Virus record (IMG/VR): IMGVR_UViG_3300045131_001722
Location: 1 to 23,885 of that record
Length of the DNA: 23,885 nt
Source of the DNA: a virus
Strand: one strand, 5' to 3'
The notes under the pieces are model-generated. The model saw nothing but the letters and a program-made list of their open reading frames with translations. It made no database searches and was not told the origin of the DNA. Made by a program: the position numbers and the translations under genes. How positions within the stretch are numbered: the first letter of the stretch is position 1; each line of letters starts with the position of its first letter. Shown here in pieces: positions 9,516-23,885 of the stretch.

Positions 9516-9535
9516 AGAAAACTGAACACAGCTGC

Positions 9536-9564: not shown

Positions 9565-9595
9565 ACATTCAAACAGGCAGCAAAGGTGGTGTTCA

Positions 9596-10033
9596 ATGGA
9601 AGGTAAGGTTTCGTTCTCGCACAACAATGGTGGGCATAGGTCGTTTAGATTCTCCAAGCACAAACCATATCCGTCTGCTTCGACTATTGCCTATATGACC
9701 AACGCCTTTCCTAGTAATCAAGAAGATGAGAAATCGTTTCTAGCTGGTGTCCTGTACTGCATCCTTAACAAAGATGCAGAAATGAAACTTATGATGGGAT
9801 TTGCTGAATGTCACCCAGACGACCAGTTTTCAAGAAAGACTGGACGAGAGATCTCTGAGTCTAGTATGAAAGAAGTTACGATCAAGGGCCTGACTATCCA
9901 CGCGTCTACGGAATCTCCTGAGCACAATCGGGTGGACTTCGAAGTAGACCACAATAAGAGAACCTATACCTGCGTGGTTAGGCGTTCCCCTAAGGGGACG
10001 TGGTTCATCAACGACCATTACATCAATCCGTAA
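9596..10033 (+). CDS. Hypothetical protein, 145 aa
   Basis: The ATG at 9596 is preceded by AAAGGTGGTG about 5-12 bases upstream. The product starts with a His/Ser/Lys-rich segment (SFSHNNGGHRSFRFSKHKPY), continues into a helical stretch with KSFLAGVLYCILNKDAEMKL (about 46-65) and ends in a beta-rich part with RTYTCVVRRSPKGTWFINDH. I recognise no family and see no membrane segment. It has its own likely promoter and is followed by an intrinsic terminator, so it appears to be a single-gene transcription unit between two packaging genes. That arrangement is typical of late-acquired phage accessory genes, which is inference. Confidence 0.75.
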   Translation: MEGKVSFSHNNGGHRSFRFSKHKPYPSASTIAYMTNAFPSNQEDEKSFLAGVLYCILNKDAEMKLMMGFAECHPDDQFSRKTGREISESSMKEVTIKGLTIHASTESPEHNRVDFEVDHNKRTYTCVVRRSPKGTWFINDHYINP

Positions 10034-10067
10034 ACTTCATGCGCTGTCTCCCCATTCGGCGCATTCG

Positions 10068-10098
10068 CCCCAGACCACCGCTCGGTCTGGGGTTTTTC
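10068..10098 (+). terminator. Intrinsic terminator before the large terminase gene
   Basis: A 9-bp perfect stem CCCCAGACC / GGTCTGGGG (10068-10076 with 10084-10092) with a 7-base loop is followed by TTTTTCTTT. It closes the single-gene unit of the 145-residue protein. Confidence 0.88.
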
Positions 10099-10151
10099 TT
10101 TATGTCGTAATCCGTTAAAATTAAGAGTAAAATGAGCGTTTCGGGAGAAGC

Positions 10152-13100: not shown

Positions 13101-13601
13101 CCATCAAGAAGCAAGAAACCGCTGAGAGTAGAGACTGGAGTCAGCTGGATACGAGACCATTTGTGGAATGTATCCAGACAAGAGACCAGGTTTATGATCG
13201 TTGAACACAAGAGCAACGAAGAATTCGTCTTGTCTATGGAGCAATGGCAATACAAGAGAAGTGTCATGGGTTTCCAGTACGGGCATTTCGAGGACGACAC
13301 GTGGCCCACTCACTTCCAAGACGCCCATAGGTATGGAATCGACCCATACGTCATGGTGGGGGCAGCCTCTTACTCCGTATCCTCAGAGATATCGAGAGCT
13401 GGAGCGGTTAGGGACGAAGATGAAGCCAAGGAAATCCTGTCAACGGTGGAGGAAACCCTGTCTAGTCCGAATAGGTTCTATCAGGCCATGTCAGATGAAT
13501 ACTACCAGCAATCGAGAATAAGAGTGGACTTTTCCAAAGAACATGTTAAAACAAAAGGTACGAATGAAACTGGAAACTTCTTCTTCTCTTTTGAACAATA
13601 A
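10152..13601 (+). CDS. terL: Terminase large subunit, carrying two inteins
   Basis: The precursor has 1149 residues; removing two inteins leaves about 657, normal for T4-like large terminases. This ATPase/nuclease drives DNA into the prohead and cuts the concatemer. The spliced Walker A reads SRNSTKTLG (K95 joined to T441), a variant P-loop as in other terminases. The spliced Walker B reads ASVLCFDELDLI (L533 joined to C681; D683 and E684 catalytic). The nuclease is RNase H-like: GVDFGYTDPATA (D911 of the precursor), CPDTADK (D968) and FQDAHRYGID (D1057) supply the acidic triad. A Cys cluster C801-x2-C804-x5-C810 may bind metal. GGGAGAAGC lies just before the ATG. The extein reading frame is continuous through both inteins, so no frameshift or stop breaks it. 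Activity should require both splicing events. Confidence 0.95.
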   Translation: MTDLVRFEPNNIDGALEKQLESVYEQMLLQPCHTKEELNQWIKTFLGISLPDATLDTDNSNSSPLGFIWDVYEAALTGNTEKTSFVVAASRNSTKCLKEGTLVATPRGPVEIQELKTGDTVYDEYGKPVKVTAVHDQGIQDCVDLVHSRSVIATCTRNHKWSTFDVRRPESIVDKKVENFHASTRIKRNTLDLPLGDKREPLAYVLGAFLGDGCSTEWGLRISSQNDLIPTKVANILGTSWSKMKGNFTYIIKSQRPGVRWNFSDFYEKCIRNRKAHEKIVDMEELKKWDRLSLLEFVAGLLDTDGSVYTTAVTGFQVHINFGVQSKDMVDAFIYACQALWQFTPNLKISKQTHYVNGPLYYVKINHAYYCKRMLKELDPHLVTPSKKYKEEYDSIAPNNFSERGYGVRIRDAGRHPCWDITVDSPTSLYTLYNGAVTHNTLGVSILEFMLMLHFGRDIIHMAAILDQSDAAVNYLNNFLRIPAVKRFASTDNRRMKVLKGLPKTEDRPTTSCRMRVIVASKESANAQRASVLCVPGHTKIVTEDGDITAKELHEAIVNNEEVNVLTVDESSGNFQHQRVFATYSRKETKRIKLFLTSGDTLEVTPEHPVAVCANSGPFTWIKAGSLEKGMLLWRVEGKSLLTDTISRIKKYHDFEDQVVYDFSVMTNHNFFANGIMVHNCFDELDLIEEKVLSESAMIGDPDRNGKPPIFIYLSSRKSASGPIQKKIDQSTNPKNGIALHKWNLTDMMRKCPDEVHRPDLPGIPLFIEREALDVKTQEQIDQLPLEKKEGYDKYDAYAGCLECPAFLACKAKSPGQYSQESSILRDIPFVRTVLRETGDPEQIKAQVLNLKPESSGVIYNRFSRNLHYRPLNEVYRFAFGAYPDKGKWVTREDFVRELKENGWRITCGVDFGYTDPATAVIIAYSRSQDKEIIIDCDTATGYSNPDWLGHVRNTLFVKYGFDLLCPDTADKSSPGVASKLGMPSRSKKPLRVETGVSWIRDHLWNVSRQETRFMIVEHKSNEEFVLSMEQWQYKRSVMGFQYGHFEDDTWPTHFQDAHRYGIDPYVMVGAASYSVSSEISRAGAVRDEDEAKEILSTVEETLSSPNRFYQAMSDEYYQQSRIRVDFSKEHVKTKGTNETGNFFFSFEQ
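10437..11471 (+). other. Intein 1 in Walker A, 345 aa, with LAGLIDADG endonuclease
   Basis: Residues 96-440 of the precursor. It begins with Cys96 (CLKEGTLVATPRG, block A), has block B with TCTRNHKW (T-x-x-H), two LAGLIDADG motifs (LAYVLGAFLGDG at 202-213 and LLEFVAGLLDTDG at 294-306) and ends with block F/G (WDITVDSPTSLYTLYNGAV, then THN). The next extein residue is Thr441. These are all the residues expected for class 1 protein splicing, and both acidic residues expected in the endonuclease motifs are present, so it may still be mobile. The insertion lies between Lys and Thr of the P-loop, the most conserved part of the gene. Codon usage is richer in ATA than in the surrounding exteins, which would fit acquisition. 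Confidence 0.93.
11751..12191 (+). other. Intein 2 in Walker B, 147 aa mini-intein
   Basis: Residues 534-680 of the precursor. It starts with Cys534 (CVPGHTKIVTEDGDIT, block A), has block B LEVTPEHPVAV (T-x-x-H) and ends VYDFSVMTNHNFFANGIMV plus HN, followed by extein Cys681. No LAGLIDADG motif or room for an endonuclease is present, so this is a mini-intein that can splice but not home. It sits between Leu533 and Cys681 of the Walker B strand, two residues before the catalytic Asp-Glu. Its sequence differs strongly from intein 1, which argues for separate origins rather than duplication. Confidence 0.92.
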
Positions 13602-13628
13602 CGCAATTTATCCAGGAGTGCAACCGCC

Positions 13629-14609
13629 GTGTCTTTCTTAAATCTTTCAATAGTCAGAACCGCTTACACGGATACCACGCCATCTGTATCCCCTGCAGAG
13701 AGCCTGTTTGATCATAGATTCTCGAAAAGCGGTATTCCAGTAGATGATCCATCAGGGAGTGTCTATACGGTTGGCGCTGGTCAGACGGTATCGCTAGGCT
13801 CTACAGCTAGGGCTCTGACGTACACCGCAACTACTGAGTTTAATATCAGTTTCCCGGTCACTGGATCTCAGACTGTGCGCATGAGATGGACAGGAACGGG
13901 TACTGCCCCCGGATTTCGTACATATCGAAGCATGGCCGGAGCCGCCAACACCGTTGTAGATCTTGTTAGAGTATCTCCGACTGCACTGAAGATTATCAAT
14001 AACTCAGGAACTGCTCTGGATTTCTCTACCGTAGTGACAGGAGATGAAGTTCACTTCCACGCAAACGAGGAATCTTTCACTAACCCGTTCCCTTATGGAA
14101 TGTGCGGGCAGACCTACCAGATTATAGAATCCGCTGCGAACTTTATCATCGTTAGAGATAACGGCGCTGGAAGTGCAATGACAGACCTAGCTCTGGGAGC
14201 TATTTATGCAGATGCTATGAGAATTTTTAGCAGCAACGGAGTTCAGATCGGAGATAAGGTTTCCTTCAGCCCTGCCTGTGCATTCTCTTACGATAACCGA
14301 GCTTACGTTCAGACAGTCACTAGCGTCACAGACCGTGAACTTGTTTTCATCAATCCGTATGCTCTTCCTGAAACAACAGTCCCAGGAGTCGGAACCATTT
14401 CTGTGTTCATGAAGACAATTGGATTCATCGCGATTCAAGCATCTGGAGCCCTTGAGCTATTTCTTGATGGTGGGACCGAACCTATTCGCATGAGCGAACT
14501 GGATCAAGGAAACGCTGTCTTTTTGGGTTCTATTAAGGCAAACAGCATGTCCGCAAAGAACCCAACCAATGAACCCATTTATGCACTTGTTCATACCTGT
14601 TCAATTTAA
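13629..14609 (+). CDS. Putative structural protein, 326 aa, beta-rich
   Basis: The start is a GTG at 13629 with AGGAG about 11 bases upstream. The protein is rich in Ser, Thr, Gly and Val with alternating hydrophobic patterns suggesting beta-sandwich domains (for example FNISFPVTGSQTVRMRWTG in the first third, LELFLDGGTEPIRMSELDQG near the end). There is no signal peptide, membrane segment or coiled coil. It lies between the large terminase and the portal, with only 5 bases before the upstream end of the portal frame, so it should be made with them. A virion decoration, neck or fibre-like protein is plausible from composition and position. I recognise no family. Confidence 0.7.
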   Translation: MSFLNLSIVRTAYTDTTPSVSPAESLFDHRFSKSGIPVDDPSGSVYTVGAGQTVSLGSTARALTYTATTEFNISFPVTGSQTVRMRWTGTGTAPGFRTYRSMAGAANTVVDLVRVSPTALKIINNSGTALDFSTVVTGDEVHFHANEESFTNPFPYGMCGQTYQIIESAANFIIVRDNGAGSAMTDLALGAIYADAMRIFSSNGVQIGDKVSFSPACAFSYDNRAYVQTVTSVTDRELVFINPYALPETTVPGVGTISVFMKTIGFIAIQASGALELFLDGGTEPIRMSELDQGNAVFLGSIKANSMSAKNPTNEPIYALVHTCSI

Positions 14610-14620
14610 GGTGAATGCAA

Positions 14621-16648
14621 ATGAAGATCCCGTTCTTGGGTAATAAAAACAGTCTACAGATTTCCTTTGAAGGCGAATCTTTAGAAAAGAGCGTAAAGCC
14701 TACCACAATAAATCCTATTCTCGAAGGTAATGTCGAAAAGAGTAAGATTGTCTTTGATTTAGAAAGCTTACGTGCTTCTGTAGATAACATCTACAATAAA
14801 TCTGGAAGAATCACGGACAAGGAACTGAGAAACGTAGCAAACTACGATTCCATCATTTCTTTGATTATTGCCACCAGAGCTAATCAGGTGATGAGCTTCG
14901 GTAAACGCTCTAAAAGTAAGTACAATCGTGGTTTCCTACTTAGAGAAACATTGCCAGTTCAGGATGACGAATCCATTCCTCCAGAACGTAAGGAAGAAGA
15001 ATGCAGACACAGGTCGGCATTAGCGGACGTCGTAGCTAAATGGATCAAGAACTGCGGAACTTCTAGCAAAGAAATCCGAGACTACGCCTTTCAGGGATCT
15101 GATTCATTCTTCAAGGAATGTACTCTAGCGGAATATCTTTCGGCTCAAGCTAGAAACCTGCTTACGTTCGGTAGATTTGCTACACAAATCATCAGAAGCA
15201 AAGACGGTGTTCCTTTGATGTGGAGGCCTATTCCTGTTGAAACTCTATACAGAGTTATCGATGGTCGTTATATTGCTATGACTGGAGCAGACAAAGACGT
15301 AAATGACGTAGGCGCAGAAGACGCTAAGGAATGGAACGAGATAGCAAAAGAACGCCAGCCTATCGCTTACGTTCAGAAGATTAACGGTAAAACGGTATCT
15401 TTCTTCACTGAAGACGAGATCATTGTCGGATACTACCAGAAACAGGCATTCGAGAATCTTAACGGCTATCCAATGGCCCCTATTGAGATGGCTTACTATT
15501 CTGTTTTGATGAACTTCTATACCCAGTCCTACATGCAGAACTTCATGACAAAGGGACTAGGAACTAAAGGTCTAATCAACCTGAAAACAACAGAAGGCGA
15601 CTATCTTAGCAAGGAAGACATCGAAAGTTTCAGAAAACTGTTCAGTAACTACGTTGCTAGAAACGATAACGCCGCCACCATTCCAGTTGTCGCAGGAGCA
15701 GTGGACGTCGAATGGATTCCATTGACGGCCTCTCCTAAAGACGTCGAATTCACTAAGATGTTCGACAGAATCCTGCTTATCGTCTGTTCTAGCTTCCAGA
15801 TATCTCCTCATGAAATTGGATTTGGTTCATTAGACCCAGAAGGCGCTGGCGCTGGAAACATGGGGATGAAGCAGGACCAGATAGTGCAAGGAGAAGAAAG
15901 AGGTCTCAGACAAATCATTGAGCAACTTCTTGATCATGTGTACCAAATGGTGGAAATGGCATTCCCTCAAGCCAGAGAAATGTTTATGCTTGAAGCAGTT
16001 GGTCTTGGTCAAAACACCAAGGAAGCCGACCTTGCTTTGTATAAGGAAGAACTCCAGACCTCCGGTACGTTCGCTAAGATTTGGTCAGACTCAGAAAGAA
16101 CTGACGCATTCCCGTATGGCGGTCACGTTCCTTCGTCTCCGGTGTTTCATCAGAGTGTGGCTAAGTACATGAAGTACTCTCTGTTCATGTATCACTTCTT
16201 TCAAGATAAGGAAGCTCTAAACAATCCTGCTTATGACTTCATCATCGATCCTGCTCTCAACGAAGCCTACCAGAATCTTAAGGCCCAGAAGCCAGAGATT
16301 GAACAGCAAGCTGCTCTAATGGACCTTGAACAGAAAAAGCATCAAATGCAGATGGAACAGACCCAAATGGGAATGCAAATGCAACAGGCCCAAACAGAGC
16401 AGAACCAACCTCAGCCAGAGCCGCAGCCTGATCCTAACGTAGAGTTAGAGAAGCAGAAGCATGAGCAGAAGATGACTCACGACCAACAGAAGCATGAGCA
16501 AAAGATGGCTCATGAAAAAGATAAGCATAACCTCAGCTTACGTGTAGCCTTCGCAGAAATGCAAAGAAAGCAACAAGACGCCAAGCTCAACAGAATGGCA
16601 AATGTCATTCAAGCAGCCAAGTCTCCAAAGCCTCCAGTAGCTGGTTGA
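14621..16648 (+). CDS. Portal protein
   Basis: The ATG at 14621 is preferred to the ATG at 14615 because AAGGTG (14608-14613) lies 7 bases from it but only 1 base from the other. The product has 675 residues. It has the mixed helical/beta organisation of phage portal proteins, with the wing segment (LLTFGRFATQIIRSKDGVP, then MWRPIPVETLYRVIDGRYIA), the conserved stretch GYPMAPIEMAYYSVLMNFY, and the stem/clip region FQISPHEIGFGSLDPEGAGA. It forms the dodecameric ring at one capsid vertex and binds the terminase. The C-terminal 100 residues are dominated by Gln, Met, Lys and His with near repeats KHEQKM(T/A)H at residues about 611-637, a highly charged helix. The portal follows the terminase and the structural gene, the usual order in such phages. 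Confidence 0.88.
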   Translation: MKIPFLGNKNSLQISFEGESLEKSVKPTTINPILEGNVEKSKIVFDLESLRASVDNIYNKSGRITDKELRNVANYDSIISLIIATRANQVMSFGKRSKSKYNRGFLLRETLPVQDDESIPPERKEEECRHRSALADVVAKWIKNCGTSSKEIRDYAFQGSDSFFKECTLAEYLSAQARNLLTFGRFATQIIRSKDGVPLMWRPIPVETLYRVIDGRYIAMTGADKDVNDVGAEDAKEWNEIAKERQPIAYVQKINGKTVSFFTEDEIIVGYYQKQAFENLNGYPMAPIEMAYYSVLMNFYTQSYMQNFMTKGLGTKGLINLKTTEGDYLSKEDIESFRKLFSNYVARNDNAATIPVVAGAVDVEWIPLTASPKDVEFTKMFDRILLIVCSSFQISPHEIGFGSLDPEGAGAGNMGMKQDQIVQGEERGLRQIIEQLLDHVYQMVEMAFPQAREMFMLEAVGLGQNTKEADLALYKEELQTSGTFAKIWSDSERTDAFPYGGHVPSSPVFHQSVAKYMKYSLFMYHFFQDKEALNNPAYDFIIDPALNEAYQNLKAQKPEIEQQAALMDLEQKKHQMQMEQTQMGMQMQQAQTEQNQPQPEPQPDPNVELEKQKHEQKMTHDQQKHEQKMAHEKDKHNLSLRVAFAEMQRKQQDAKLNRMANVIQAAKSPKPPVAG

Positions 16649-16673
16649 CATTATTCCTATTTCTCCTTAAGAT
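16645..16673 (+). promoter_or_regulatory. Strong sigma70-like promoter
   Basis: A perfect TTGACA (16645-16650) is followed by a 17-base spacer and TAAGAT (16668-16673). The first box overlaps the portal stop codon and the promoter reads into the 149-residue gene, whose start is 52 bases downstream. Confidence 0.65.
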
Positions 16674-16724
16674 TTATTTAAGAGTCCATTTATCTTAATA
16701 GCTTCTTAAGGAGAGTCTCCGTAC

Positions 16725-17174
16725 ATGACAGACAAGATAATTGATTTATTGTCAGAGAGAAACAAACGAGCTCCGAAACCTGACAAGTCAGAGTTAGAGC
16801 AAAGCGCTCTTGATACCCAGATGCTCAGCGAATACAAGAAGCAAATTGAAGATTTGTATAAAAACAAAATTAACGAAAAAGAAGTTGAATCTTTATCTAA
16901 ACTGTTGCTTTTCTTCAGCAAAAGAGTCAAAAGCGTACTAGGTAAGGTTCATAAAGCCGCTAAGGAAGACCCAAGGTTCGGCCTGCTAATGTCTTCGGTT
17001 CTTACTGAGATTGCCGCAGACGAACTGCTTAGAATCGGGCTATGCGGCGCAGTAGATAAGGATGATTTCGATGATTACGTGAACAGAATCATCGAAGAGC
17101 TAGGCGGTCTAGAGTATTTTGAAGATTTTGAAATGTTAGATGAATTGGAGGATTTTGACGATGAAGACTGTTAA
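16725..17174 (+). CDS. Hypothetical acidic helical protein, 149 aa
   Basis: AAGGAG lies about 11 bases before the ATG. The protein appears almost entirely helical: a charged N-terminal segment with a likely coiled coil at about 20-60 (YKKQIEDLYKNKINEKEVES), a hydrophobic core at about 80-110, and a C-terminus that is almost all Asp and Glu (MLDELEDFDDEDC). It has no known motif that I recognise. It is the first gene of a three-gene unit starting at a strong promoter and overlaps the next gene by 14 bases. An acidic DNA-mimic or regulator would fit the composition, but this is speculation. Confidence 0.75.
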   Translation: MTDKIIDLLSERNKRAPKPDKSELEQSALDTQMLSEYKKQIEDLYKNKINEKEVESLSKLLLFFSKRVKSVLGKVHKAAKEDPRFGLLMSSVLTEIAADELLRIGLCGAVDKDDFDDYVNRIIEELGGLEYFEDFEMLDELEDFDDEDC

Positions 17175-17421
17175 TATGTTGTCTGGTGCGAAGCGTAAGA
17201 AAGAAGAGAAAGCCGCTATTGAATCGATGGAGACCCTTAAGAGCGAGATGCTTCACTTCATCTCTGCTGCGTCTAATGTAATGTCTATCTTGGAAGAACA
17301 CAGTAAGTCCATCGCGTACCTTTTGTCAAAGGACAAGGACTGGCTAGAGGCAAACAAAGAGTTGCTAGCTGAGTACGAGAATCTTGCGAAAGGAAAAGAG
17401 GATGTCGAAGAAGCCAATTAA
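17161..17421 (+). CDS. Small helical protein, 86 aa
   Basis: The start at 17161 (MKTVNMLSGAKRKKEEKAAI) is chosen over an upstream ATG at 17140 because GGAGG lies 9 bases before it, inside the end of the preceding gene. The product is a Lys/Glu/Leu-rich helix with heptad-like spacing through most of its length, probably a coiled-coil dimer. No family is recognised. It overlaps the neighbours at both ends (14 and 20 bases), so it is part of the same translationally coupled unit. Confidence 0.72.
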   Translation: MKTVNMLSGAKRKKEEKAAIESMETLKSEMLHFISAASNVMSILEEHSKSIAYLLSKDKDWLEANKELLAEYENLAKGKEDVEEAN

Positions 17422-17908
17422 GAAGACACACTTTCAGCAAGTCTGTAAGCTAGGTCTTTCTTCTCCGCTAGAACTAGACGGTTTCTGTGAACACGGTTTA
17501 GCAAGAGCTAGATGGTGTTCAGAGAACCATAACTCGTCTTCAGCAGAAGAACTAAGTTCTCGTGGCTGTCCGTATTTCGTGATTTCTGAGGACGAAGACG
17601 GATACTGCTTCTTCAAGATGGCTTCAAAGAAGAGCTTCACTGGAATGGCGGAAGAAGACATTGCAAAGAGACTGGGAATAAACGTCAATCAAGTGAGAGC
17701 TATTTTAGCTAGAGCTTTGATGAAAATCAGAGGAACGGAACTTCATAAAGAACTAGAAGAACTCAGAAAAGACGGCTGCTTGTATGACGAATCGTATGAA
17801 GAAGATCTAGATATGTACTGTGTTTCTGCTGATGGAGACTTCTTTGAAGAAGTCGGAGTAACCGGTGATGGAGAGGTATCCGCAGAGGAACCTTCCGCCT
17901 CGGCTTAA
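17402..17908 (+). CDS. Sigma region 4-like HTH protein with Cys-rich N-terminus
   Basis: The start at 17402 (MSKKPIKK) follows AAAGGAAAAGAGG; the protein has 168 residues. Residues about 84-112 (EEDIAKRLGINVNQVRAILA, then RALMKIRGTE) match the pattern of sigma70 region 4.2, in which an E-x-x-I-A-x-x-L-G-V turn leads into a recognition helix and ends with AR-A-L-x-K-x-R. The first 70 residues hold five cysteines (15, 29, 39, 56, 69) and a His-rich stretch, suggesting a metal-binding fold. The last 50 residues are acidic. A helix-turn-helix of this kind without regions 2 and 3 cannot be a full sigma factor; it may be a regulator that contacts the -35 region or the RNA polymerase beta flap, as small phage late-transcription factors do. 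Function beyond DNA binding is inference. Confidence 0.65.
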   Translation: MSKKPIKKTHFQQVCKLGLSSPLELDGFCEHGLARARWCSENHNSSSAEELSSRGCPYFVISEDEDGYCFFKMASKKSFTGMAEEDIAKRLGINVNQVRAILARALMKIRGTELHKELEELRKDGCLYDESYEEDLDMYCVSADGDFFEEVGVTGDGEVSAEEPSASA

Positions 17909-18219
17909 GGGATGATGTTGATCTTCTTGAAGTTCACTTCTTCATTCAAGTGCATGGCCTTAATCTGTTCAGATAAGGCCTTTTTCATGAACGTTGCCTT
18001 AAAAAGCACAACGAGGAACCTAGCCCATCCTATGCTGATCCTAAGGGCGTAGTTGTTGTCTTCGTCTAGCTTACGAATAGCCACGCTAGACCCACGGAAC
18101 AACCAGCTCTTCTTGCAGTTTGCTGTTACAATATCTCCAATCACGGCATTCCTTACCTTTCCTTCAGACATTCTGTTAACCATTGACCCCATATCAAGGA
18201 AATACTTTTGCCAGTTCAT
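17905..18219 (-). CDS. Hypothetical basic protein, 104 aa
   Basis: This is an unrecognised protein. The stop codon overlaps the stop of the convergent plus-strand gene by two bases. The product is basic, with VIGDIVTANCKKSWLFRGSS in the middle and a hydrophobic segment ISIGWARFLVVLFKATFMKK (about 62-81) that may be amphipathic rather than a true membrane span. It overlaps the upstream minus-strand gene by 26 bases, so the pair is one transcript. The 3' end of the gene also encodes the plus-strand terminator hairpin, constraining its codons there. Confidence 0.72.
   Translation of the reverse strand: MNWQKYFLDMGSMVNRMSEGKVRNAVIGDIVTANCKKSWLFRGSSVAIRKLDEDNNYALRISIGWARFLVVLFKATFMKKALSEQIKAMHLNEEVNFKKINIIP
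17956..17985 (+). terminator. Intrinsic terminator inside the opposing gene
   Basis: GGCCTTA (17956-17962) pairs with TAAGGCC (17974-17980), an inner TCT/AGA pair extends the stem, and TTTTT follows at 17981-17985. It lies about 50 bases downstream of the sigma-like gene stop and within the C-terminal coding part of the minus-strand gene, ending the plus-strand transcript. Confidence 0.8.
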
Positions 18220-18658
18220 CGATGAATTCCTTTGAGCGAATGAGGTTCATTGCAGGAAGACTGAGTACTTTAGCCTTAGTTTCGCTCTCTACCTTATAAA
18301 GTACCTCAAGATTGGCCCATTTCTCTTCATCGGACACGAAATCGACGATCTTCTCTTGATCGGAAGGAAGCAGGGAAACAGGTTCGTTCTCTTCCTCTTC
18401 AGTCTTAGCGAGTCTAAGCGCAACATCTGTGAGCCAAGCTTCGTGAATCTTCATTTTCAGAGGAGCCTTTGGCGCTTCGACCTTTTGACATAGTTGATAC
18501 AAGAAACTCTCCAAAGTTAAACTAACCTTTAACTTCTCTTCAAGATCTGAAATTCCGAAGAATTCCTTAGACTTAGCTATAAAGTCTTCGTTTTCATTCT
18601 CTTCTTGAGTGAGAAAGGCTTTTGCTGAGATTTCCATCATGAATAGCTTATTCGACAT
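18194..18658 (-). CDS. Hypothetical acidic protein, 154 aa
   Basis: The start at 18658 (MSNKLFMMEISAKAF) has AAGGAG 10 bases upstream; the longer open frame to 18715 lacks such a site and would place the start in the promoter region. The protein is Glu/Lys/Leu-rich and helical throughout, with FYQL-type hydrophobic patches and a Cys at about residue 60 (SFLYQLCQKV). No family is recognised. It leads the minus-strand pair and is divergent from the phosphatase gene, with both promoters overlapping in the 102-base gap. Confidence 0.75.
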   Translation of the reverse strand: MSNKLFMMEISAKAFLTQEENENEDFIAKSKEFFGISDLEEKLKVSLTLESFLYQLCQKVEAPKAPLKMKIHEAWLTDVALRLAKTEEEENEPVSLLPSDQEKIVDFVSDEEKWANLEVLYKVESETKAKVLSLPAMNLIRSKEFIDELAKVFP

Positions 18659-18686
18659 AGGCTTGAAACTCCTTAATGAGATTAAC

Positions 18687-18715
18687 TTGACAACCTTAAG
18701 CAGCAAAAGTAACAT
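18687..18715 (+). promoter_or_regulatory. Promoter for the phosphatase/ClpP run
   Basis: Perfect TTGACA (18687-18692), a 17-base spacer and TAACAT (18710-18715) read toward the HAD phosphatase gene, 46 bases before its start. Confidence 0.65.
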
Positions 18716-18734
18716 AGGTGTAAACAGATATCAA
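18706..18734 (-). promoter_or_regulatory. Possible divergent promoter for the minus-strand pair
   Basis: On the minus strand TTGATA (18734-18729), a 17-base spacer and TACTTT (18711-18706) face the 154-residue gene. It overlaps the plus-strand promoter, so only one polymerase could bind at a time. Confidence 0.4.
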
Positions 18735-18760
18735 TTACTGAAGAAAGGAACTCTCCGAAA

Positions 18761-19207
18761 ATGAACCTTCAACCCCCTGCCATTATTGTTGACCTCGATA
18801 ACACCCTAATCGCAACCCCTCCGCCTCCGCCTCTACCTTATGACCAAGTGGACTGGGCTAAGGTATCGGAAGACAACCGTCACTGTCCCCCTATTGACGG
18901 AATCAAGATGATGGTTCGGTCGTTCCTTGCTTCCGGTATGAGCGTCATTTACATGACAGGGAGAAACTACAACGATGCGCCACTAACCACCGAGTGGCTG
19001 CAAGAACATGGTCTTTTGGCCAAAGACTTAACCCACATGCTAATGAGGACTCCGGGAGACTTCCGACCAGATCCGGTCATAAAGGAAGAGCTTACGAAGA
19101 TTGCCTTGGAGCACTTCCAAGTTGTTGCCGCAATAGATGACAGAGAGGATAATATAGATATGTGGAAGAAGGAGTTTCCGAACATAGTCCGTCTCCATAA
19201 AAAGTGA
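18761..19207 (+). CDS. HAD-family phosphatase, polynucleotide 3'-phosphatase type
   Basis: The 148-residue protein has all four HAD motifs. Motif I is VDLDNTLI (D11 nucleophile, D13 acid/base), motif II is YMTGR (T66), motif III is the Lys at 108 (DPVIKEEL) and motif IV is IDDREDN (D126, D127). The TGR motif and the DDR-x-x-N-x-x-MW ending closely follow the phosphatase half of T4 polynucleotide kinase/phosphatase, which removes 3'-phosphates during nucleic acid repair. No kinase domain is fused. A proline run at about residues 20-24 lies directly after motif I. AAAGGAAC precedes the start. A role in DNA or tRNA end repair, or nucleotide salvage, is inferred from the family. It is first in a run with the ClpP-like protease. 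Confidence 0.85.
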   Translation: MNLQPPAIIVDLDNTLIATPPPPPLPYDQVDWAKVSEDNRHCPPIDGIKMMVRSFLASGMSVIYMTGRNYNDAPLTTEWLQEHGLLAKDLTHMLMRTPGDFRPDPVIKEELTKIALEHFQVVAAIDDREDNIDMWKKEFPNIVRLHKK

Positions 19208-19212
19208 TATAA

Positions 19213-19242
19213 GTGTGTGTGTGTGTGTGGTGTGGTGTGTGT
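19213..19242 (+). repeat. GT-only tract
   Basis: Thirty consecutive bases contain only G and T, mostly as (GT)n, directly after the phosphatase stop codon. It is the only simple repeat of this size in the window and lies in the roughly 200-base stretch before the likely ClpP-like start. Confidence 0.8.
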
Positions 19243-19406
19243 CAAAGGCTGCTGAGAGCGGGGTTCAAATAATACTTATGGCAGAGAAGCTGTTGTCGTC
19301 GTCGTCCATTCTTCTGAAGAAAAGCAAGACTTCACCGTTTCCTGTCACCGGTAGCAGAGGGACGGGCTGCAAGAGTAAAGAGACCGTTTCTGGCGGAGCC
19401 TCAAGC

Positions 19407-19955
19407 ATGTCGAACACAGTGTTTCTCGGAGACATAGACGATAAGACTCCTGAGATATTCAGAAGGAGAGTTTCTCAGAGGCTTGCTTATTTCCCAGAAG
19501 ACCCTATTGTAATTACCATTGACTCTCACGGTGGAGACGTCTATTCGGCGTTCGCCATCCTTGATTTCATGGAACACATCCGAAAGGACTGTGGGTGTTC
19601 CATAGTTACTGTATGCACTGGTAAGGCCATGTCTGCCGGAGCCTTAATCTTGTCTGCCGGTGACGTTCGGGCAGCCTCTCCTAATTCGGTCATCATGATT
19701 CATGAAACTCTTGCTGCCATTCCCTTCTCTTCGTTTAGAGACGTTGTTGTAGAAACTGAAGAGATACAGAGAGTTAACGATCAAATGCTTAAGATAATGG
19801 CAAAAAATATGAAATCTACCGTTCCTGCTCTGAAAGCTCTGTTTGGAAAGAAGAGGGACATCTACTTGACTCCTCAGCAGGCCCTGGATATAAACCTCAT
19901 TGACAAGATTGGTTTTCCCGAAATCAAGATAACCACTTCAATGGAGATATCCTAA
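19407..19955 (+). CDS. ClpP-like serine protease (S14 family)
   Basis: From the ATG at 19407 the product has 182 residues and starts MSNTVFLGDIDD, which is where the ClpP fold begins. GGAG lies about 9 bases upstream. The oxyanion strand IDSHGGDVYSAFAILDFM, the nucleophile motif GKAMSAGALIL (Ser about 76), the His motif NSVIMIHE (His about 99) and RDIYLTPQQALDINLIDKIG (catalytic Asp candidate in RDIYL) complete the Ser-His-Asp triad. Phage members of this family act as head maturation proteases or capsid-associated proteases. The frame is open upstream; an ATG at 19278 would add 43 Ser/Lys/Gly-rich residues but has no ribosome binding site, and a longer GTG lies in the GT tract. The stop overlaps the next start (TAATG). 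Confidence 0.85.
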   Translation: MSNTVFLGDIDDKTPEIFRRRVSQRLAYFPEDPIVITIDSHGGDVYSAFAILDFMEHIRKDCGCSIVTVCTGKAMSAGALILSAGDVRAASPNSVIMIHETLAAIPFSSFRDVVVETEEIQRVNDQMLKIMAKNMKSTVPALKALFGKKRDIYLTPQQALDINLIDKIGFPEIKITTSMEIS

Positions 19956-20155
19956 TGAATCCCTCTAATTCAAAACTAGCTTCTTTTGTTATGTTCTTTG
20001 TTCTCTTAATCATCGCTATTGTGTGGTTTATCTGTAGACTTCCTAAGAATACTTGGAACTTCTTGTTTGGAGTAGGGTATTGCGTGGAATGTCATAACTT
20101 CAGACCAAACTGGATTCTTCTTTACAAAGGCACCTGCTTCTGGCATCGCCCTTGA
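19955..20155 (+). CDS. Small single-span membrane protein, 66 aa
   Basis: The start overlaps the stop of the ClpP-like gene in TAATG, with GGAGA about 7 bases upstream. One hydrophobic segment spans residues about 10-28 (SFVMFFVLLIIAIVWFICRL), followed by a short basic and aromatic region with C43-x2-C46 and C61, which could bind a metal or form disulphides. A short N-terminus followed by a span fits a small inner-membrane protein. Holin or spanin-like roles are possible but no lysis neighbours are present, so this is unassigned. Tight coupling to the protease suggests co-expression. Confidence 0.7.
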   Translation: MNPSNSKLASFVMFFVLLIIAIVWFICRLPKNTWNFLFGVGYCVECHNFRPNWILLYKGTCFWHRP

Positions 20156-20206: not shown

Positions 20207-20515
20207 ATGGCGCTAGACCCTTCTTCCCTTGAAACAAAAATGTCTAAAGAAATGGTGTCGGCTCTTGACTCTGCTTTTGGAGCAGGGGTCAAGGAATCCG
20301 CTGAGTATCGTAAGAAGTTTTGCGATGCCATTGCGAAAGCGTGTGCAAAAACCGTGGTTGACCACATTAAACAAATGGGCGAGGTGAACGGTTCCTGCTC
20401 TGTGACTATTGTTCCAGGTATCCCTGTTGCCACTGCCGGTTCTCCTGCAGCTCAAACTGGAGCAACGACCGGACCGGGCTCTGGAACAGGAACCATTACT
20501 GGAAAGATTCTTTGA
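20207..20515 (+). CDS. Hypothetical protein, 102 aa, with Gly/Thr-rich tail
   Basis: AAAGGAGAAAC precedes the ATG by about 6 bases. The first about 65 residues are helical (MSKEMVSALDSAFGAGVKES and KKFCDAIAKACAKTVVDHIK). The last 35 residues are an Ala/Thr/Gly/Pro-rich low-complexity tail (GATTGPGSGTGTITGKIL). It resembles small phage structural or assembly proteins in general layout, but I recognise no named family. It is the last plus-strand gene before a hairpin that may terminate the run, and it converges with the zinc-ribbon gene. Confidence 0.72.
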   Translation: MALDPSSLETKMSKEMVSALDSAFGAGVKESAEYRKKFCDAIAKACAKTVVDHIKQMGEVNGSCSVTIVPGIPVATAGSPAAQTGATTGPGSGTGTITGKIL

Positions 20516-20538
20516 GAGGGCGCTTTAGCGCATTCTCT
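20514..20538 (+). terminator. Possible terminator between convergent genes
   Basis: AGAG (20515-20518) and CTCT (20535-20538) enclose GCGC-TTTA-GCGC (20520-20531), an interrupted stem. The downstream sequence is pyrimidine-rich (TCTTTC) but not a true U tract. It separates two convergent genes. Confidence 0.4.
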
Positions 20539-20545
20539 GCTCTTT

Positions 20546-20782
20546 CTAGTCCTCTTCTTTGCCTGCAATTTTTCGGTGCTTCTTTCGCCCGACCCTGCAC
20601 CCGCAGCTTTTTTGATCGCCCCTTCTTAGGTACTTTCCAAGTACCGAGAACTCGCTCCCGCATAGCTTGCAGCTGCAAACCCAGTATGCCTTCGTTGTGT
20701 TCGCCCTGTCTCGGTCGCGGTACAGCACCCTGTAGGTCTCGGTTTCGTGTCCGGTCATGTCTATCATTTCGCATCTTGCCAT
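20546..20782 (-). CDS. Zinc-ribbon miniprotein related to phage HNH/AP2 accessory domains
   Basis: The 78-residue product has a clear zinc-ribbon pattern: YWVCSCKLCG (C-x-C-x2-C), then VLGKYLRRGD and KSCGCRVG (C-x-C). This is the layout of the small zinc-binding domain that often precedes HNH or AP2 domains in phage homing endonucleases and related proteins. The protein ends with a basic tail (RKKHRKIAGKEED). It has no nuclease motif, so it is either a free-standing DNA-binding zinc ribbon or a remnant of a larger endonuclease gene. AAGGAAGG lies about 11 bases before the ATG on the minus strand. The overlapping longer frame on the same strand is out of frame and lacks the Cys pattern. Confidence 0.72.
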   Translation of the reverse strand: MARCEMIDMTGHETETYRVLYRDRDRANTTKAYWVCSCKLCGSEFSVLGKYLRRGDQKSCGCRVGRKKHRKIAGKEED

Positions 20783-21017
20783 ATGTATTGCAACCTTCCT
20801 TGAGCAGCCCGTGAGTCTTTCCTACAATTATACCCACTTACCCCCATAATATAGCGTTTTTATAGAAATATATTTTATTTAGACCACCTACCCATAATCC
20901 TAAAAATATTACCATAGTAGAGACTCACCCCCATAATCCTAAAAATATTACCATAGTAGAGACTCACCCCCATAATCCTAAAAATTACCATAGTAGAGAT
21001 GTGGGGCCACCCGGATC
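20783..21017. other. AT-rich gene-free segment with tandem repeats
   Basis: No gene is supported here. Positions 20822-20880 are AT-rich with runs such as TAGAAATATATTTTATTT. Three 39-bp repeats follow. The segment marks the transition from the phage module to DNA with different composition and could be an origin, a regulatory region or a junction. Confidence 0.6.
20891..21001. repeat. Three 39-bp direct tandem repeats
   Basis: Repeat units begin CCCATAATCCTAAAAAT at 20891, 20930 and 20969, a constant 39-base period. Units 1 and 2 are the same across their whole length; unit 3 lacks two bases (AT) in the A/T core and diverges after TAGAGA. A degenerate partial copy (CCCATAATATAG) precedes them at about 20843. 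There are no spacers, so this is not a CRISPR array. Iteron-like arrays of this form occur at replication origins and repressor sites. Confidence 0.85.
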
Positions 21018-21034
21018 CCTTACTGTTTGCAAAC

Positions 21035-21054
21035 AAGCCACAAAAGGCTTTTTT
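21035..21054 (+). terminator. Small terminator-like hairpin at the left edge of the cassette
   Basis: AAGCC (21035-21039) pairs with GGCTT (21046-21050), followed by TTTT. A 12-base palindrome TGTTTGCAAACA (21024-21035) directly precedes it. The stem is short, so the call is weak. Confidence 0.4.
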
Positions 21055-21060
21055 ACAATA

Positions 21061-21094
21061 AACAAAACACCTGTTAGGCCTTGCGTGTTTTGTT
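21061..21094. repeat. 10-bp inverted repeat
   Basis: AACAAAACAC (21061-21070) and GTGTTTTGTT (21085-21094) are perfect complements with a 14-base loop. It is the first of a series of stem-loops in the gene-free part of the cassette. Confidence 0.7.
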
Positions 21095-21280
21095 GGGTTA
21101 TGTTACTTTGTTGGTAAGCAAGGGTTTGGCGCAGGGGCGGCATACTACGGGCTAGGGCAAGCGGCCGTAAGGCTACCCAACACAACACGGGTGTTATGTG
21201 TTTGGGCAAAGCAGGTAAAACGCTTGCACTTAAAAGTAAGGTTATGCTTAAACCTAAAAGCAGCACAACAAACACTAACA

Positions 21281-21310
21281 GGCCAGTAGGTAATTGCACT
21301 ACTGGCCTTT
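21281..21310. repeat. 9-bp inverted repeat, terminator-like
   Basis: GGCCAGTAG (21281-21289) and CTACTGGCC (21299-21307) form a perfect stem with a 9-base loop, followed by TTT. With AACA before and TTTG after it resembles a weak terminator. Confidence 0.65.
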
Positions 21311-21371
21311 GCATACGTTAACAAACAAATACGTTTGCACAAAGGGGCGGGGCCGGTAAGGGCCTGCCACT

Positions 21372-21391
21372 TTGTGCTTAAGTAAGCACAA
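21372..21391. repeat. 9-bp inverted repeat with 2-base spacer
   Basis: TTGTGCTTA (21372-21380) and TAAGCACAA (21383-21391) are perfect complements. A 2-base loop is too tight for a simple RNA hairpin end, so it may be a protein-binding palindrome. Confidence 0.65.
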
Positions 21392-21395
21392 GGGC

Positions 21396-21423
21396 GCTAC
21401 TACTACGGGGTGTAGCTAGTAGC
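21396..21423. repeat. 11-bp stem-loop with one bulge
   Basis: GCTACTACTAC (21396-21406) pairs with GTAG-C-TAGTAGC (21412-21423) with one bulged C and the loop GGGGT. It lies between the preceding palindrome and the likely operator. Confidence 0.65.
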
Positions 21424-21432
21424 ACCAAACAA

Positions 21433-21466
21433 CGTGTACCGGTACACTGGCCGGCAACGGTACACG
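21433..21466. promoter_or_regulatory. Operator-like inverted repeat upstream of the orphan ORF
   Basis: CGTGTACCG (21433-21441) and CGGTACACG (21458-21466) are an exact 9-bp inverted repeat 16 bases apart. The left copy also overlaps a 14-base palindrome GTGTACCGGTACAC (21434-21447). The arrangement, 29 bases before the ORF start, resembles a dimer-binding site. Confidence 0.45.
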
Positions 21467-21494
21467 CAACCACGGCCATACCTTAGGGGGTATT

Positions 21495-22142
21495 ATGGTT
21501 ACACAGTTTGTTAATGCAGCAATGGCTACCTTTATTAGCGGGGCGGCTACAGCCCCGCAACTGGTTAGCGCCTGCCGTGCACTGGCGGCGGACGACGCCG
21601 CCATTACCGCTGCACTGCGGGTAGCGTTTGCCGAGGGTAGCCTTACCCTTGGCCAAGTGGGGGATGTGGCCTTGGCTATGGCCTGCACACTGGCGGAGGC
21701 AGGGTATACGGCTGCACCCGCCGCCGAACCCAAGGCCAAGCGGCAGGCATTACCTGCCCATGTTACCTTGGCTAGGGCGGCAGCCCGCCAAGTGGCAAGC
21801 AAGGCGGCTATGGACGCCGCCGGCAGTGGTACGCTGCTGGCTTGGGCAGCTAGCCTTGGCTGTGCACCGGAGGCCATGCCCGACGGCAGGATGGGCGTAC
21901 GAAAGTACCGCTTGGAGGCCGCTATGCACAAGCACTACGGGGACGACCGATGCGAAGACAACACAGGCCACTACCTGTGCGGTATTACCGAGGCCTTGGG
22001 ACGCAGCCCATTGGTGGACAGCCACCGCATTGAGACCAAGAACGAGGCTGGCCAAGTGCGTGCCAGCACTTGGTACGCGGACAGGGCAGGCGAGGCCGGT
22101 GTGCGTGTGGGCGGTTATACCCGCAACCGCAAGGCTAAGTAA
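21495..22142 (+). CDS. Orphan Ala-rich protein, 215 aa, encoded without TC dinucleotides
   Basis: The ATG follows AGGGGG by 5 bases. The N-terminal half is extremely rich in Ala and helical (AACRALAADDAAITAALRVA-like), and a Pro/Ala/Lys linker lies near residues 74-88. The C-terminal half has a compact-looking part with LRKY/HKHYGDDRCEDNTGHYL, two conserved-looking Cys, and a basic end (GGYTRNRKAK). I recognise no family and see no membrane segment. Codon choice is strikingly restricted: Ser only AGC/AGT, Phe only TTT, Ile only ATT, no Leu CTC or Val GTC. The long run without TC or TGA-like stops means open frames are easier to find here, but the strong codon-level avoidance with GA kept at Asp/Glu codons argues that this frame is really translated. 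The basic C-terminus suggests nucleic-acid binding, which is only inference. Confidence 0.75.
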   Translation: MVTQFVNAAMATFISGAATAPQLVSACRALAADDAAITAALRVAFAEGSLTLGQVGDVALAMACTLAEAGYTAAPAAEPKAKRQALPAHVTLARAAARQVASKAAMDAAGSGTLLAWAASLGCAPEAMPDGRMGVRKYRLEAAMHKHYGDDRCEDNTGHYLCGITEALGRSPLVDSHRIETKNEAGQVRASTWYADRAGEAGVRVGGYTRNRKAK

Positions 22143-22155
22143 GACACAGGCCGAA

Positions 22156-22191
22156 ACGTACCGACAGGTACGTATAGCAGTTTAGCTGCTA
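22156..22191 (+). repeat. Two consecutive hairpins after the orphan ORF
   Basis: ACGTACC-GACA-GGTACGT (22156-22173) is a perfect 7-bp stem-loop. TAGCAG (22175-22180) and CTGCTA (22186-22191) form a second stem with the loop TTTAG. No U tract follows, so factor-independent termination is uncertain. Confidence 0.6.
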
Positions 22192-22235
22192 CTGACGAGG
22201 CGCTACTGTCAGCTTAACTAGTCATCCGGGTGTTC

Positions 22236-22271
22236 CGGTTGGCTCCTCTGGGGTCGCTACCTACGCAGAGG
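22236..22271 (+). promoter_or_regulatory. Structured leader A
   Basis: CGGTTGGCTC (22236-22245) is followed by a stem CCTCTG (22245-22250) / CAGAGG (22266-22271) enclosing a loop that contains GCTAC and ACG. It precedes the 112-residue gene. A related leader (B) lies at 22938-22981. Confidence 0.5.
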
Positions 22272-22303
22272 ATGAGATTATGGTAGCAAGGAGATATATC
22301 GCT

Positions 22304-22642
22304 ATGGCTAATCAAGCTCGTTCCAATGGTGTTGAAAAGTTCCTCCGTATGATGGGTCACGACCCCATCTACTCGTGCAACGTCACTGCACGTGTCAACC
22401 ACGAGGAGAGCGATGAGCTCGTCCTCACCTTCGTCGGGTGTGGGCCCGACGACGCATACGTTGGTGTATGCATCATCACCGACTCTAAGTTCGAGTTCAC
22501 TGAGTTGGTGTACATGAACTCAGAGCTCAAGGTAGTTACTACCTCTGACGAAACTCCTATGGCTAATCCATGGGAAGAGTCGGTGGCTGAGTTCGACGAG
22601 GCATCCGCCGAAGTCGTACGCAACTTCATCGGCGCGTACTAA
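22304..22642 (+). CDS. Hypothetical acidic protein, 112 aa
   Basis: AAGGAG lies 10 bases upstream of the ATG at 22304; an in-frame ATG at 22280 is possible but weaker. The product starts MANQARSNGVEKFLRMMGHD, then shows alternating beta-like strands (DELVLTFVGCGPDDAYVGVC and TELVYMNSELKVVTT) and ends with an acidic helix (ESVAEFDEASAEVVRNFIGA). It has no signal peptide or membrane segment. I do not recognise a family. It is first of the small-gene run and sits behind leader A. A small phage early-type protein would fit, by context only. Confidence 0.72.
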   Translation: MANQARSNGVEKFLRMMGHDPIYSCNVTARVNHEESDELVLTFVGCGPDDAYVGVCIITDSKFEFTELVYMNSELKVVTTSDETPMANPWEESVAEFDEASAEVVRNFIGAY

Positions 22643-22656
22643 GGAGGATACAACCC

Positions 22657-22926
22657 ATGAGATACGACTTTTTTGTAGTAGTCGGTGACACTGAGGTCAC
22701 TGGCTACCAAGAGGATAACTTCTCCCACCGTGATCACACAGGTGAGCCTGTGTACGGTAAGGAAGAGACAATCATCACAGAGGCAATTGACCAGGCGCCT
22801 CCTGAAGGTTGTTCAGACAAGCTCGATGTCGATGCTTTGATGGCCGACAAAGAGTTCATGAGTAGCTTGGAGAGCGCTATTGCCGATGGGCAGTGTGACG
22901 CGTACGAAGCAAGATTCGGTATTTAG
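22657..22926 (+). CDS. Hypothetical acidic protein, 89 aa
   Basis: AAGGAGG precedes the ATG by 10 bases, 14 bases after the previous stop. The product (MRYDFFVVVGDTEVTGYQED...) has an N-terminal beta-like strand, a charged loop and a C-terminal acidic helix (DALMADKEFMSSLESAIADG). I recognise no family. It is probably co-transcribed with the 112-residue gene, and a leader hairpin follows its stop. Confidence 0.72.
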   Translation: MRYDFFVVVGDTEVTGYQEDNFSHRDHTGEPVYGKEETIITEAIDQAPPEGCSDKLDVDALMADKEFMSSLESAIADGQCDAYEARFGI

Positions 22927-22937
22927 TGTCTGGGCCT

Positions 22938-22981
22938 CGGTTGGCTCAGGCTCCTGTGTGGCAGCTACACCGACGCACAGG
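22938..22981 (+). promoter_or_regulatory. Structured leader B
   Basis: CGGTTGGCTC (22938-22947) is followed by a stem CCTGTG (22953-22958) / CACAGG (22976-22981) around a loop containing GCTAC and ACGC. Relative to leader A, the fourth stem base is G instead of C and its partner is C instead of G, so pairing is kept. An alternative fold (GTGTGG with CTACAC) overlaps it. Confidence 0.5.
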
Positions 22982-23011
22982 GTTATTTAGGTGAGCAGGA
23001 GTGTATATATT

Positions 23012-23164
23012 ATGACTACTGAGGCTGACCTCGCTATTAGCCTCGAATGCTACAACGAAGGTCAATACAAAGAGGAAGTCGACGCCATTGTCGATGAGCT
23101 CCATAAGAGTGATGACGACTTCGGTAGGTTTATGAATGACATCATGGGAGTATTTAATGAATAA
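23012..23164 (+). CDS. Very small acidic protein, 50 aa
   Basis: The ATG at 23012 opens a frame of 50 codons ending TAA at 23162-23164. AGGAG lies about 12 bases upstream. The product (MTTEADLAISLECYNEGQYK...) is rich in Asp and Glu with one Cys and looks helical. The stop overlaps the start region of the next gene by 8 bases. It lies behind leader B, in the same pattern as the 112-residue gene behind leader A. No family is recognised. Confidence 0.6.
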   Translation: MTTEADLAISLECYNEGQYKEEVDAIVDELHKSDDDFGRFMNDIMGVFNE

Positions 23165-23474
23165 GCTAGATAGGCTAAAGATAGCTGGCGTCCTCCTGTT
23201 TGAGGGCGCCGACGACGTTGTGTTCTATACCAGTACGACCTCGGTTGTACTGGAGATTGTGTTCATAGTGAACAAGCTCCACTGTGGACGGATTCGGTTG
23301 GCTCATAACCGGTTCGAAATGCACTGTCTGTCTGGGGCATTCAACCCAGACACAAACTTCACCTCACTAGAGGTAGCTCTCACTGTCGCTACAGTAGAGA
23401 GTGGCGAACAATATGTGGACAGACTACTGGATGACCCAGTAGTCACTAAATGGTTAGGAGATTTATATGAATAA
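23157..23474 (+). CDS. Hypothetical protein, 105 aa
   Basis: The ATG at 23157 (MNKLDRLKIAGVLLFEGADD) is preferred to an upstream ATG at 23136 because GGGAG lies 8 bases before it. The product alternates beta-like hydrophobic strands (FYTSTTSVVLEIVFIVNKL) with charged turns, with two Cys (residues about 49 and 61), and ends with a helix (VDRLLDDPVVTKWLGDL). No family is recognised and there is no membrane span. It overlaps the genes on both sides by 8 bases, implying translational coupling to the lipoprotein gene. Confidence 0.7.
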   Translation: MNKLDRLKIAGVLLFEGADDVVFYTSTTSVVLEIVFIVNKLHCGRIRLAHNRFEMHCLSGAFNPDTNFTSLEVALTVATVESGEQYVDRLLDDPVVTKWLGDLYE

Positions 23475-23835
23475 GATCATTGTGTTAGCCTCATCGGTAT
23501 TAACTCTCGTAGGCTGTGGCAAAGCAGCTTACTCGGATGACCACGATCCCAAAGTCACAGTCACTGACAGGACTCGCGAGTGTACTCGTACCTACATCTA
23601 TGGCGAAACACCTCCGCCATGGACATGCAAGGAGACAGTAGTGACGTCTCCAGTGGAAGTAGACGTGCAGGTCACTCCTACTCCAACAGCAGCTCCTCAA
23701 CAGCAACAAAAGCAGAGCCCCAAGCTCTATAAGTGCAAGTGTGGCTCGTACAAGTCTCCGAAGAACAGACAGGAATTAGTCTGTACTCTTGAAGACTTGA
23801 AGGACTCGGCCAAGCAGTGTCACATCGTTTACTGA
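23467..23835 (+). CDS. Putative lipoprotein, 122 aa
   Basis: TAGGAG lies 7 bases upstream of the ATG. The N-terminus (MNKIIVLASSVLTLVGC) is a classic type II signal peptide with the lipobox L-V-G-C and Cys17 as the lipidation site. The mature part is Thr/Pro/Gln-rich (around PTPTAAPQQQQKQ) and ends with a Cys-rich segment holding C90, C92, C106 and C118, plus C39 and C54, likely disulphides in the periplasm or on the outer face. A small lipoprotein on a phage is often used for superinfection exclusion or lysis timing; on a plasmid it may be an entry-exclusion or envelope protein. The function here cannot be decided. Confidence 0.75.
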   Translation: MNKIIVLASSVLTLVGCGKAAYSDDHDPKVTVTDRTRECTRTYIYGETPPPWTCKETVVTSPVEVDVQVTPTPTAAPQQQQKQSPKLYKCKCGSYKSPKNRQELVCTLEDLKDSAKQCHIVY

Positions 23836-23864
23836 AAACACATACTCTAGATAGAGGTACGGAT

Positions 23865-23885
23865 GTATGGTAGTGAGTACCATAC
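23865..23885 (+). repeat. Hairpin at the right end of the window
   Basis: GTATGGTA (23865-23872) and TACCATAC (23878-23885) form a perfect 8-bp stem with the loop GTGAG. The stem ends on the last base of the window, so a following U tract cannot be seen; it may be the terminator of the lipoprotein unit. Confidence 0.5.

Follow-up and report, generated by a model that had tools for sequence, protein, structure and literature searches.

A 1.1-kb leader and gene in a viral contig lack TC and nearly all avoidable GA: possible selection against dinucleotide-directed attack

Why would a gene and the non-coding DNA in front of it do without a particular dinucleotide? The question is raised by the window analysed here, a complete IMG/VR virus record of 23,885 b (IMGVR_UViG_3300045131_001722) that is probably a fragment. 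A recount of all dinucleotides found no TC between positions 21,018 and 22,142, where base composition predicts 57.3; the original prediction had the zero right, and its expectation of about 70 had assumed equal use of all dinucleotides. The uninterrupted TC-free run extends from 21,018 to 22,208. Counts in sliding windows bore this out, with TC in 21,001–22,200 being the most extreme depletion of any dinucleotide window-wide (Poisson log10 P −24.5). GA is likewise missing over about 577 b (21,016–21,590), as had been claimed for the first 570 bases or so, which means that the minus strand has no TC there; in the non-coding half of the block alone, 36 GA were expected and none was observed. 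Outside the block both dinucleotides are ordinary or raised, with observed/expected ratios of 1.21 (TC) and 1.24 (GA) over positions 1–20,000 and about 1.15 (TC) over 22,143–23,885. The second-longest TC-free run within the window measures 102 b. Across 317 kb of phage and virus DNA used as a control, the longest TC-free run is 200 b and the longest runs free of either TC or GA are 289 and 267 b, both of them GA-free and located at the A-poor left end of phiKMV. That likeness was set aside, since low A content explains the phiKMV runs and TC is normal there. Chance and base composition are excluded as causes of the TC loss by the count of 0 against 57.3 and the associated probability. Avoidance of the palindrome GATC, a candidate prompted by low GA, AT and TC, fails as the sole cause because only about two GATC are expected in the leader and because TC and GA are missing in every context, not just within GATC. 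The observation is true and extreme, and its basis is one contig.

The block consists of a non-coding leader of about 480 nt (21,018–21,494, plus strand) and an open reading frame (ORF) for an Ala-rich protein of 215 aa and pI 8.9 (21,495–22,142, plus strand). The ORF contains 26 GA dinucleotides, 20 of which are the first two bases of Asp or Glu codons, that is, at codon position 1. This phasing shows that the 215-aa ORF is a real, translated gene and that the avoidance acts on synonymous sites, where GA has been removed. Codon usage follows suit: serine is always AGC or AGT (9/9), phenylalanine always TTT (3/3) and isoleucine always ATT (4/4), just as the original prediction had stated, and neither GTC for valine (0/13) nor CTC for leucine (0/16) is used. 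In the left-hand genes, by contrast, 308 of 426 serine codons are TCN. The predicted avoidance at codon junctions was also found, with no T|C and three G|A. When synonymous codons were permuted among positions, keeping the protein and the codon counts, none of 5000 trials gave zero T|C or as few as three G|A junctions. Codon choice in the ORF is mixed and natural-looking, and its ribosome-binding site (RBS) is AGGGGG, without the usual GGA. Simple codon bias is excluded by the junction permutation and by the non-coding half obeying the same rule, which upholds the view that neither low GC nor ordinary codon bias is responsible. The rule spans coding and non-coding DNA, and Asp and Glu codons alone break it within the gene's first 390 nt.

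The two strands do not follow the rule over the same length. Up to 21,889 there is no avoidable GA, and to that point GA is confined to Asp/Glu codons as claimed; the claim fails in the 3′ part of the ORF (21,890–22,142), where six avoidable GA occur (AGG|ATG, CGA, CGA, GGA, GAG|ACC and AAG|AAC) and TC is still zero against 8–10 expected. The plus-strand TC ban outruns the minus-strand ban by 250–320 b, so the avoidance that had been described for both strands is nearly, not fully, symmetric. Beyond the stop codon GA is normal, and TC is missing for a further 66 b, in which only about three are expected. AT is scarce in the non-coding half as well, with 10 against 31 by composition, or 25.6 once the expectation takes the two empty cells into account. 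Under quasi-independence, the ORF has neither TT (26 vs 25.9 expected) nor AA (22 vs 23.2) in excess. In the leader, GG, AC and TT are all raised; TT stands at 39 vs 26.4, alongside the AT deficit, and AA at 53 vs 48.5. Deamination of TC to TT had been proposed as a cause that a TT and AA excess should separate from selection. It is disfavoured by this comparison, in which the ORF has no excess and the leader has raised TT with AA hardly changed.

The leader RNA is predicted to fold strongly from either strand (z −4.3 for plus, −6.3 for minus) and begins with a terminator-like hairpin, AAGCCacaaaaGGCTTTTTTA. Its predicted stems contain no TC (12.9 expected) and no GA (12.2 expected), and the same is true of its predicted loops (0 vs 2.1 for TC, 0 vs 7.0 for GA). 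As both words are missing from stems and loops alike, the rule takes no account of RNA pairing, and on the predicted folds an RNA enzyme specific for single strands is disfavoured as the sole agent. In the predicted unpaired parts of the 3′ end of the ORF, GA occurs 9 times against 7.0 expected. The leader may also hold a short coding sequence, a candidate 41-aa ORF (MCLGKAGKTLALKSK..., 21,196–21,321, plus strand; pI 10.3, no Asp or Glu) that has no family match. A search of Rfam with 20,500–22,800 gave no match up to E 1, and a DNA-pattern scan with the leader hairpin GGCCAGTAG returned only two unrelated contigs with ordinary TC. A viroid-like circular RNA was considered and rejected, as the circular fold is two-thirds paired but short-range (median span 29 nt) and forms no rod.

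The block is the first part of a segment running from 21,017 to the end of the contig at 23,885, which is unlike the rest of the contig in its gene relationships, composition and RNA folding. Between the right-hand 1.6 kb and the left, the dinucleotide signatures are 154 apart, and equal-size left-hand windows reach at most 118. In 400-nt windows, RNA folding has a mean z of −0.5 on the left and lies between −2.1 and −5.9 on the plus strand from 21,018 onwards. With protein and codon counts held fixed, the five genes in order from 21,017 have folding z of −5.1, −4.3, −4.1, −6.9 and −1.8 (mean about −4.4), and ten left-hand genes have an equivalent value of about −1. As a yardstick, 40 genes from seven double-stranded DNA phages average −1.5, with a minimum of −5.0 in phiKZ and about −3 for the early genes of N4, and the single-stranded RNA phage MS2 averages about −5.8. 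Strong folding is thus unusual, not unknown, among DNA-phage early genes. We also compared the segment with single-stranded RNA phages: the right-hand genes range from −1.8 to −6.9, the RNA-phage mark lies at about −6 and phiKZ, with double-stranded DNA, reaches −5.0; no maturation, coat or replicase gene was hit in PHROGs or Pfam, and the ORFs are small and mostly acidic. The folding excess extends into genes that contain TC, and four of the five genes have codons arranged for folding (−4.1 to −6.9).

Right of the block, small and mostly acidic ORFs follow one another, together with repeated CGGTTGGCTC/hairpin elements, in an arrangement like that of the T7 early region. Directly after the 215-aa ORF comes a hairpin, ACGTACC-GACA-GGTACGT (22,156–22,173, plus strand), the first in a series of three hairpins. 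The CGGTTGGCTC motif first occurs at 22,236–22,245 (plus strand) and has three exact copies (22,236, 22,938 and 23,295), all right of the block and none on the left. The first and second copies are followed by a similar hairpin and then an RBS, like a repeated promoter or 5′-UTR element; the composite pattern had no match when IMG/VR was scanned. The ORFs, all on the plus strand, encode an acidic protein of 112 aa (22,304–22,642; pI 4.2, ordinary TC and GA, folding z −4.3), acidic proteins of 89 aa (22,657–22,926; pI 4.1, z −4.1), 50 aa (23,012–23,164, behind the second CGGTTGGCTC element) and 105 aa (23,157–23,474; z −6.9), and a small lipoprotein-like protein of 122 aa (23,467–23,835; z −1.8). 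The 112-aa protein was modelled as a helix, five strands and a helix (pLDDT 67), with no convincing fold match, and protein searches with the right-hand genes found nothing. The contig terminates exactly on a perfect 8-bp hairpin, GTATGGTAgtgagTACCATAC (23,865–23,885), a possible assembly break or genome end. We read 21,017–23,885 as an early region that begins with the TC-free block and belongs either to this phage or to another one joined to it.

For the left-hand 20 kb a distant relative is Myxococcus phage Mx1 (OR576727.2), by its terminase (30%), portal and HNH region; Mx1 has neither a TC-free block nor a relative of the right-hand segment. A contig found through the terminase and portal shares about 75% DNA identity with 12,283–19,213 of the window, and the similarity stops at about 19,213, short of the block. 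A search with ClpP gave four distant contigs, just one of which has further similarity to the window; none of the four contains a TC-free run above 200 b. No relative among those searched spans the border at 21,017, and none of the collections searched yielded a relative for any of the genes between there and the end of the contig. The left segment ends in a 39-bp tandem repeat of about 2.8 copies (20,891–20,999, plus strand) with a weak promoter-like site per copy. The border itself is sharp, within about 20 b, and marks a sharp change in composition; it falls in a BamHI-type GGATCC, which is by definition the last GA and the last TC. We asked whether the block is a mobile element with terminal inverted repeats CACCCGGAT (21,008–21,016) and ATCCGGGTG (22,224–22,232). 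The pair is real, has no target-site duplication and is one of fifteen inverted-repeat pairs of at least 9 nt in this hairpin-rich region, so the nine-base repeat is not significant alone and the mobile-element reading was set aside.

The 215-aa ORF had no match in Pfam, PHROGs, NCBIfam, PADLOC or the PDB, and tblastn of phages and plasmids together with scans of IMG/VR and GTDB found no homologue; none of the defence or anti-defence families searched, PADLOC included, matches it. A single-sequence structure model is poor (pLDDT 48), with N-terminal helices and a strand-rich C-terminal part, and Foldseek with this model gave nothing below E 0.1. With the patterns used, no TC-free relative was found in IMG/VR, the GTDB genomes, 50,697 phage records or 72,556 plasmids, and the plasmid and phage records held no vector or spike-in match to the block. 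The IMG/VR and GTDB scans used exact eight-residue words, and diverged homologues may exist. The claim that no described element follows such a rule held in the databases and literature searched; the lack of a published description is weak evidence, as subscription journals lay mostly outside the search.

Selection against a nuclease or similar enzyme is the leading class of cause. Tentatively, we take the block to be an early-region phage cassette under long-standing selection against DNA attack directed at 5′-TC, a reading we regard as possible. The leader and first large gene (215 aa) would open the early-region segment of an uncultured bacteriophage, and long selection would have left the plus strand TC-free throughout and the minus strand without avoidable 5′-TC over the first 0.87 kb. 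The agent would be an enzyme attacking DNA at 5′-TC or at a short degenerate site built on TC, for example a DddA-kind deaminase paired with uracil excision, or a short-site nickase. The cassette would meet it before its own product acts, like the earliest genes of T7 and T5, and, being thus exposed, might be expected to encode an early counter-defence or host-takeover protein. In favour of selection at the DNA level is a rule that extends into non-coding DNA, takes no notice of predicted RNA pairing and gives way, over the first 0.87 kb, to amino acids alone. Slightly less probable, in our judgement, is the fuller proposition that a phage early cassette was selected over a long period, in its coding and its non-coding DNA, to lack 5′-TC on either strand unless amino acids force it, which implies an undescribed dinucleotide-reading defence and its evasion. 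Several points weigh against selection at the DNA level. TC and GA abound both in the left-hand phage and in the genes right of the block, so the agent would have to spare both; a plus-strand ban at least 250 b longer than that on the minus strand is not predicted for a symmetric enzyme acting on duplex DNA; and we know of no restriction enzyme or restriction–modification system with a two-base site. The reading is further weakened by the 215-aa ORF having no homologue found and no defence or anti-defence family match.

Precedents for parts of this reading exist. Dropping short restriction sites is common among phages, and roughly one prokaryotic virus genome in ten has lost such sites completely or almost completely (Rusinov et al. 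2018, PMC6286503); this avoidance resembles the block in that short DNA words are lost on both strands and at synonymous sites. It differs in concerning defined, mostly Type II sites and in being genome-wide; here the absent word is two bases long, shorter than any restriction–modification recognition site we know of, and is absent from a 1.1-kb block only, TC being at 1.21 and about 1.15 of expectation to its left and right. T7 gene 0.3 (ocr) and the first-step-transfer DNA of T5, whose early-injected region carries anti-restriction functions (PMC9345386), share with the block the order of a leader, an opening gene and then several small early ORFs, and exposure to host defence is expected there before protection exists. 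In those phages, however, it is the encoded proteins that protect, the 215-aa protein resembles neither, and the T7 early DNA we examined has ordinary TC and GA. The rule is matched by DddA, a double-stranded DNA cytosine deaminase with exactly 5′-TC specificity (PMC10442228). DddA is, however, an interbacterial toxin, the TT/AA excess that marks its action is missing from the ORF, and no DddA-type gene was recognised in the window.

Protection could instead operate on RNA, the message having been cleared of UC throughout and of GA over its 5′ 0.87 kb to escape a dinucleotide-directed RNA enzyme, which we consider somewhat unlikely. RNA-level selection does act here, as the genes from 21,017 on fold strongly beyond the needs of protein and codons; the strand difference at 21,890–22,142 suits a rule on the sense strand, and so does an RBS without GGA. 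In the SHERLOCKv2 work CcaCas13b reportedly prefers UC and PsmCas13b GA. Enzymes with suitable preferences are on record, since Cas13 orthologues have orthogonal dinucleotide motif preferences in collateral cutting (PMC11417378) and CmdT of the CmdTAC system ADP-ribosylates the A of GA, one of the block's two missing words, in single-stranded mRNA (PMC11618068). CmdTAC is, however, a single-strand-specific host defence enzyme that leaves the loss of UC and the loss from stems unexplained. More generally, an RNA-level account requires two independent bans that are by coincidence reverse complements, and ssRNA-specific enzymes would spare the predicted stems from which UC and GA are gone, whereas the predicted unpaired parts at the 3′ end of the ORF tolerate GA. 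The GA of Asp and Glu codons would keep the mRNA targetable, and structured neighbour genes have ordinary UC and GA. Mutation without selection, in which repeated deamination of TC to TT and GA to AA erased the dinucleotide, is very improbable. The specificity of DddA for 5′-TC in double-stranded DNA and the raised TT of the leader favour it, but leader AA is hardly raised, the TT rise accompanies an AT deficit, and the ORF has no excess of either product. Moreover, the frame is intact, with 20 Asp/Glu GA, while every TC was lost, and total saturation across 1.1 kb without collapse of the gene would be hard to reach.

Other accounts place the origin of the rule outside this phage. A recent import from a virus or plasmid lineage that is TC/GA-free genome-wide, the 3′ GA reflecting recombination or relaxation since arrival, is unlikely. 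The sharp left border with its change in composition and the return of GA before TC at the right fit an import, as do the ORF, which replaces its lost TC steps without TT/AA excess as expected after a long ban, and the joint rise of GG, AC and TT in the leader; against it stand the failure to find a TC-free relative, with the patterns used, in any of the four collections scanned and the fold signature shared with the right-hand neighbours, which suggests that block and neighbours belong together. About as unlikely is a designed cassette, or an assembly chimera that joined unrelated genome pieces at about 21,017. Such an origin would suit a border lying in GGATCC just behind the 39-bp repeat, a contig end placed exactly on a perfect hairpin, and segments that differ in dinucleotide signature (154 vs at most 118), relatives and RNA folding. 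A chimera would account for the border, but not for the TC ban, and the GGATCC is there by definition as the last GA and TC. The original prediction had named designed DNA among the causes, and there it keeps a place, made less likely by the phasing of GA on Asp/Glu codons, which is the signal of a real gene, by the mixed, natural-looking codons and by the lack of a vector or spike-in match among plasmids and phages; the folding excess, too, continues into TC-containing genes. Selection against attack at 5′-TC in DNA stays the reading we prefer.

Phages drop restriction sites of four to six bases. The complete exclusion of one dinucleotide from a gene together with its leader appears to be undescribed within the searches made and, provided the sequence is natural, has no known counterpart. 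If natural, it would indicate a host activity able to recognise as little as two bases of DNA or RNA, a form of immunity that surveys based on sites would miss, and the product of the 215-aa gene would naturally be a candidate for counter-defence. Runs of at least 500 b without TC offer a simple genome-wide criterion that could reveal more cases.

In the left-hand segment, a small HNH endonuclease-like ORF (20,546–20,782, minus strand; PHROG 374, E 2e-8) lies near the left border of the block. The ORF for the terminase large subunit (10,152–13,601, 1149 aa) apparently carries two intein-like insertions: intein/homing-like regions lie between its terminase matches, and one junction reads ...VHN|C.
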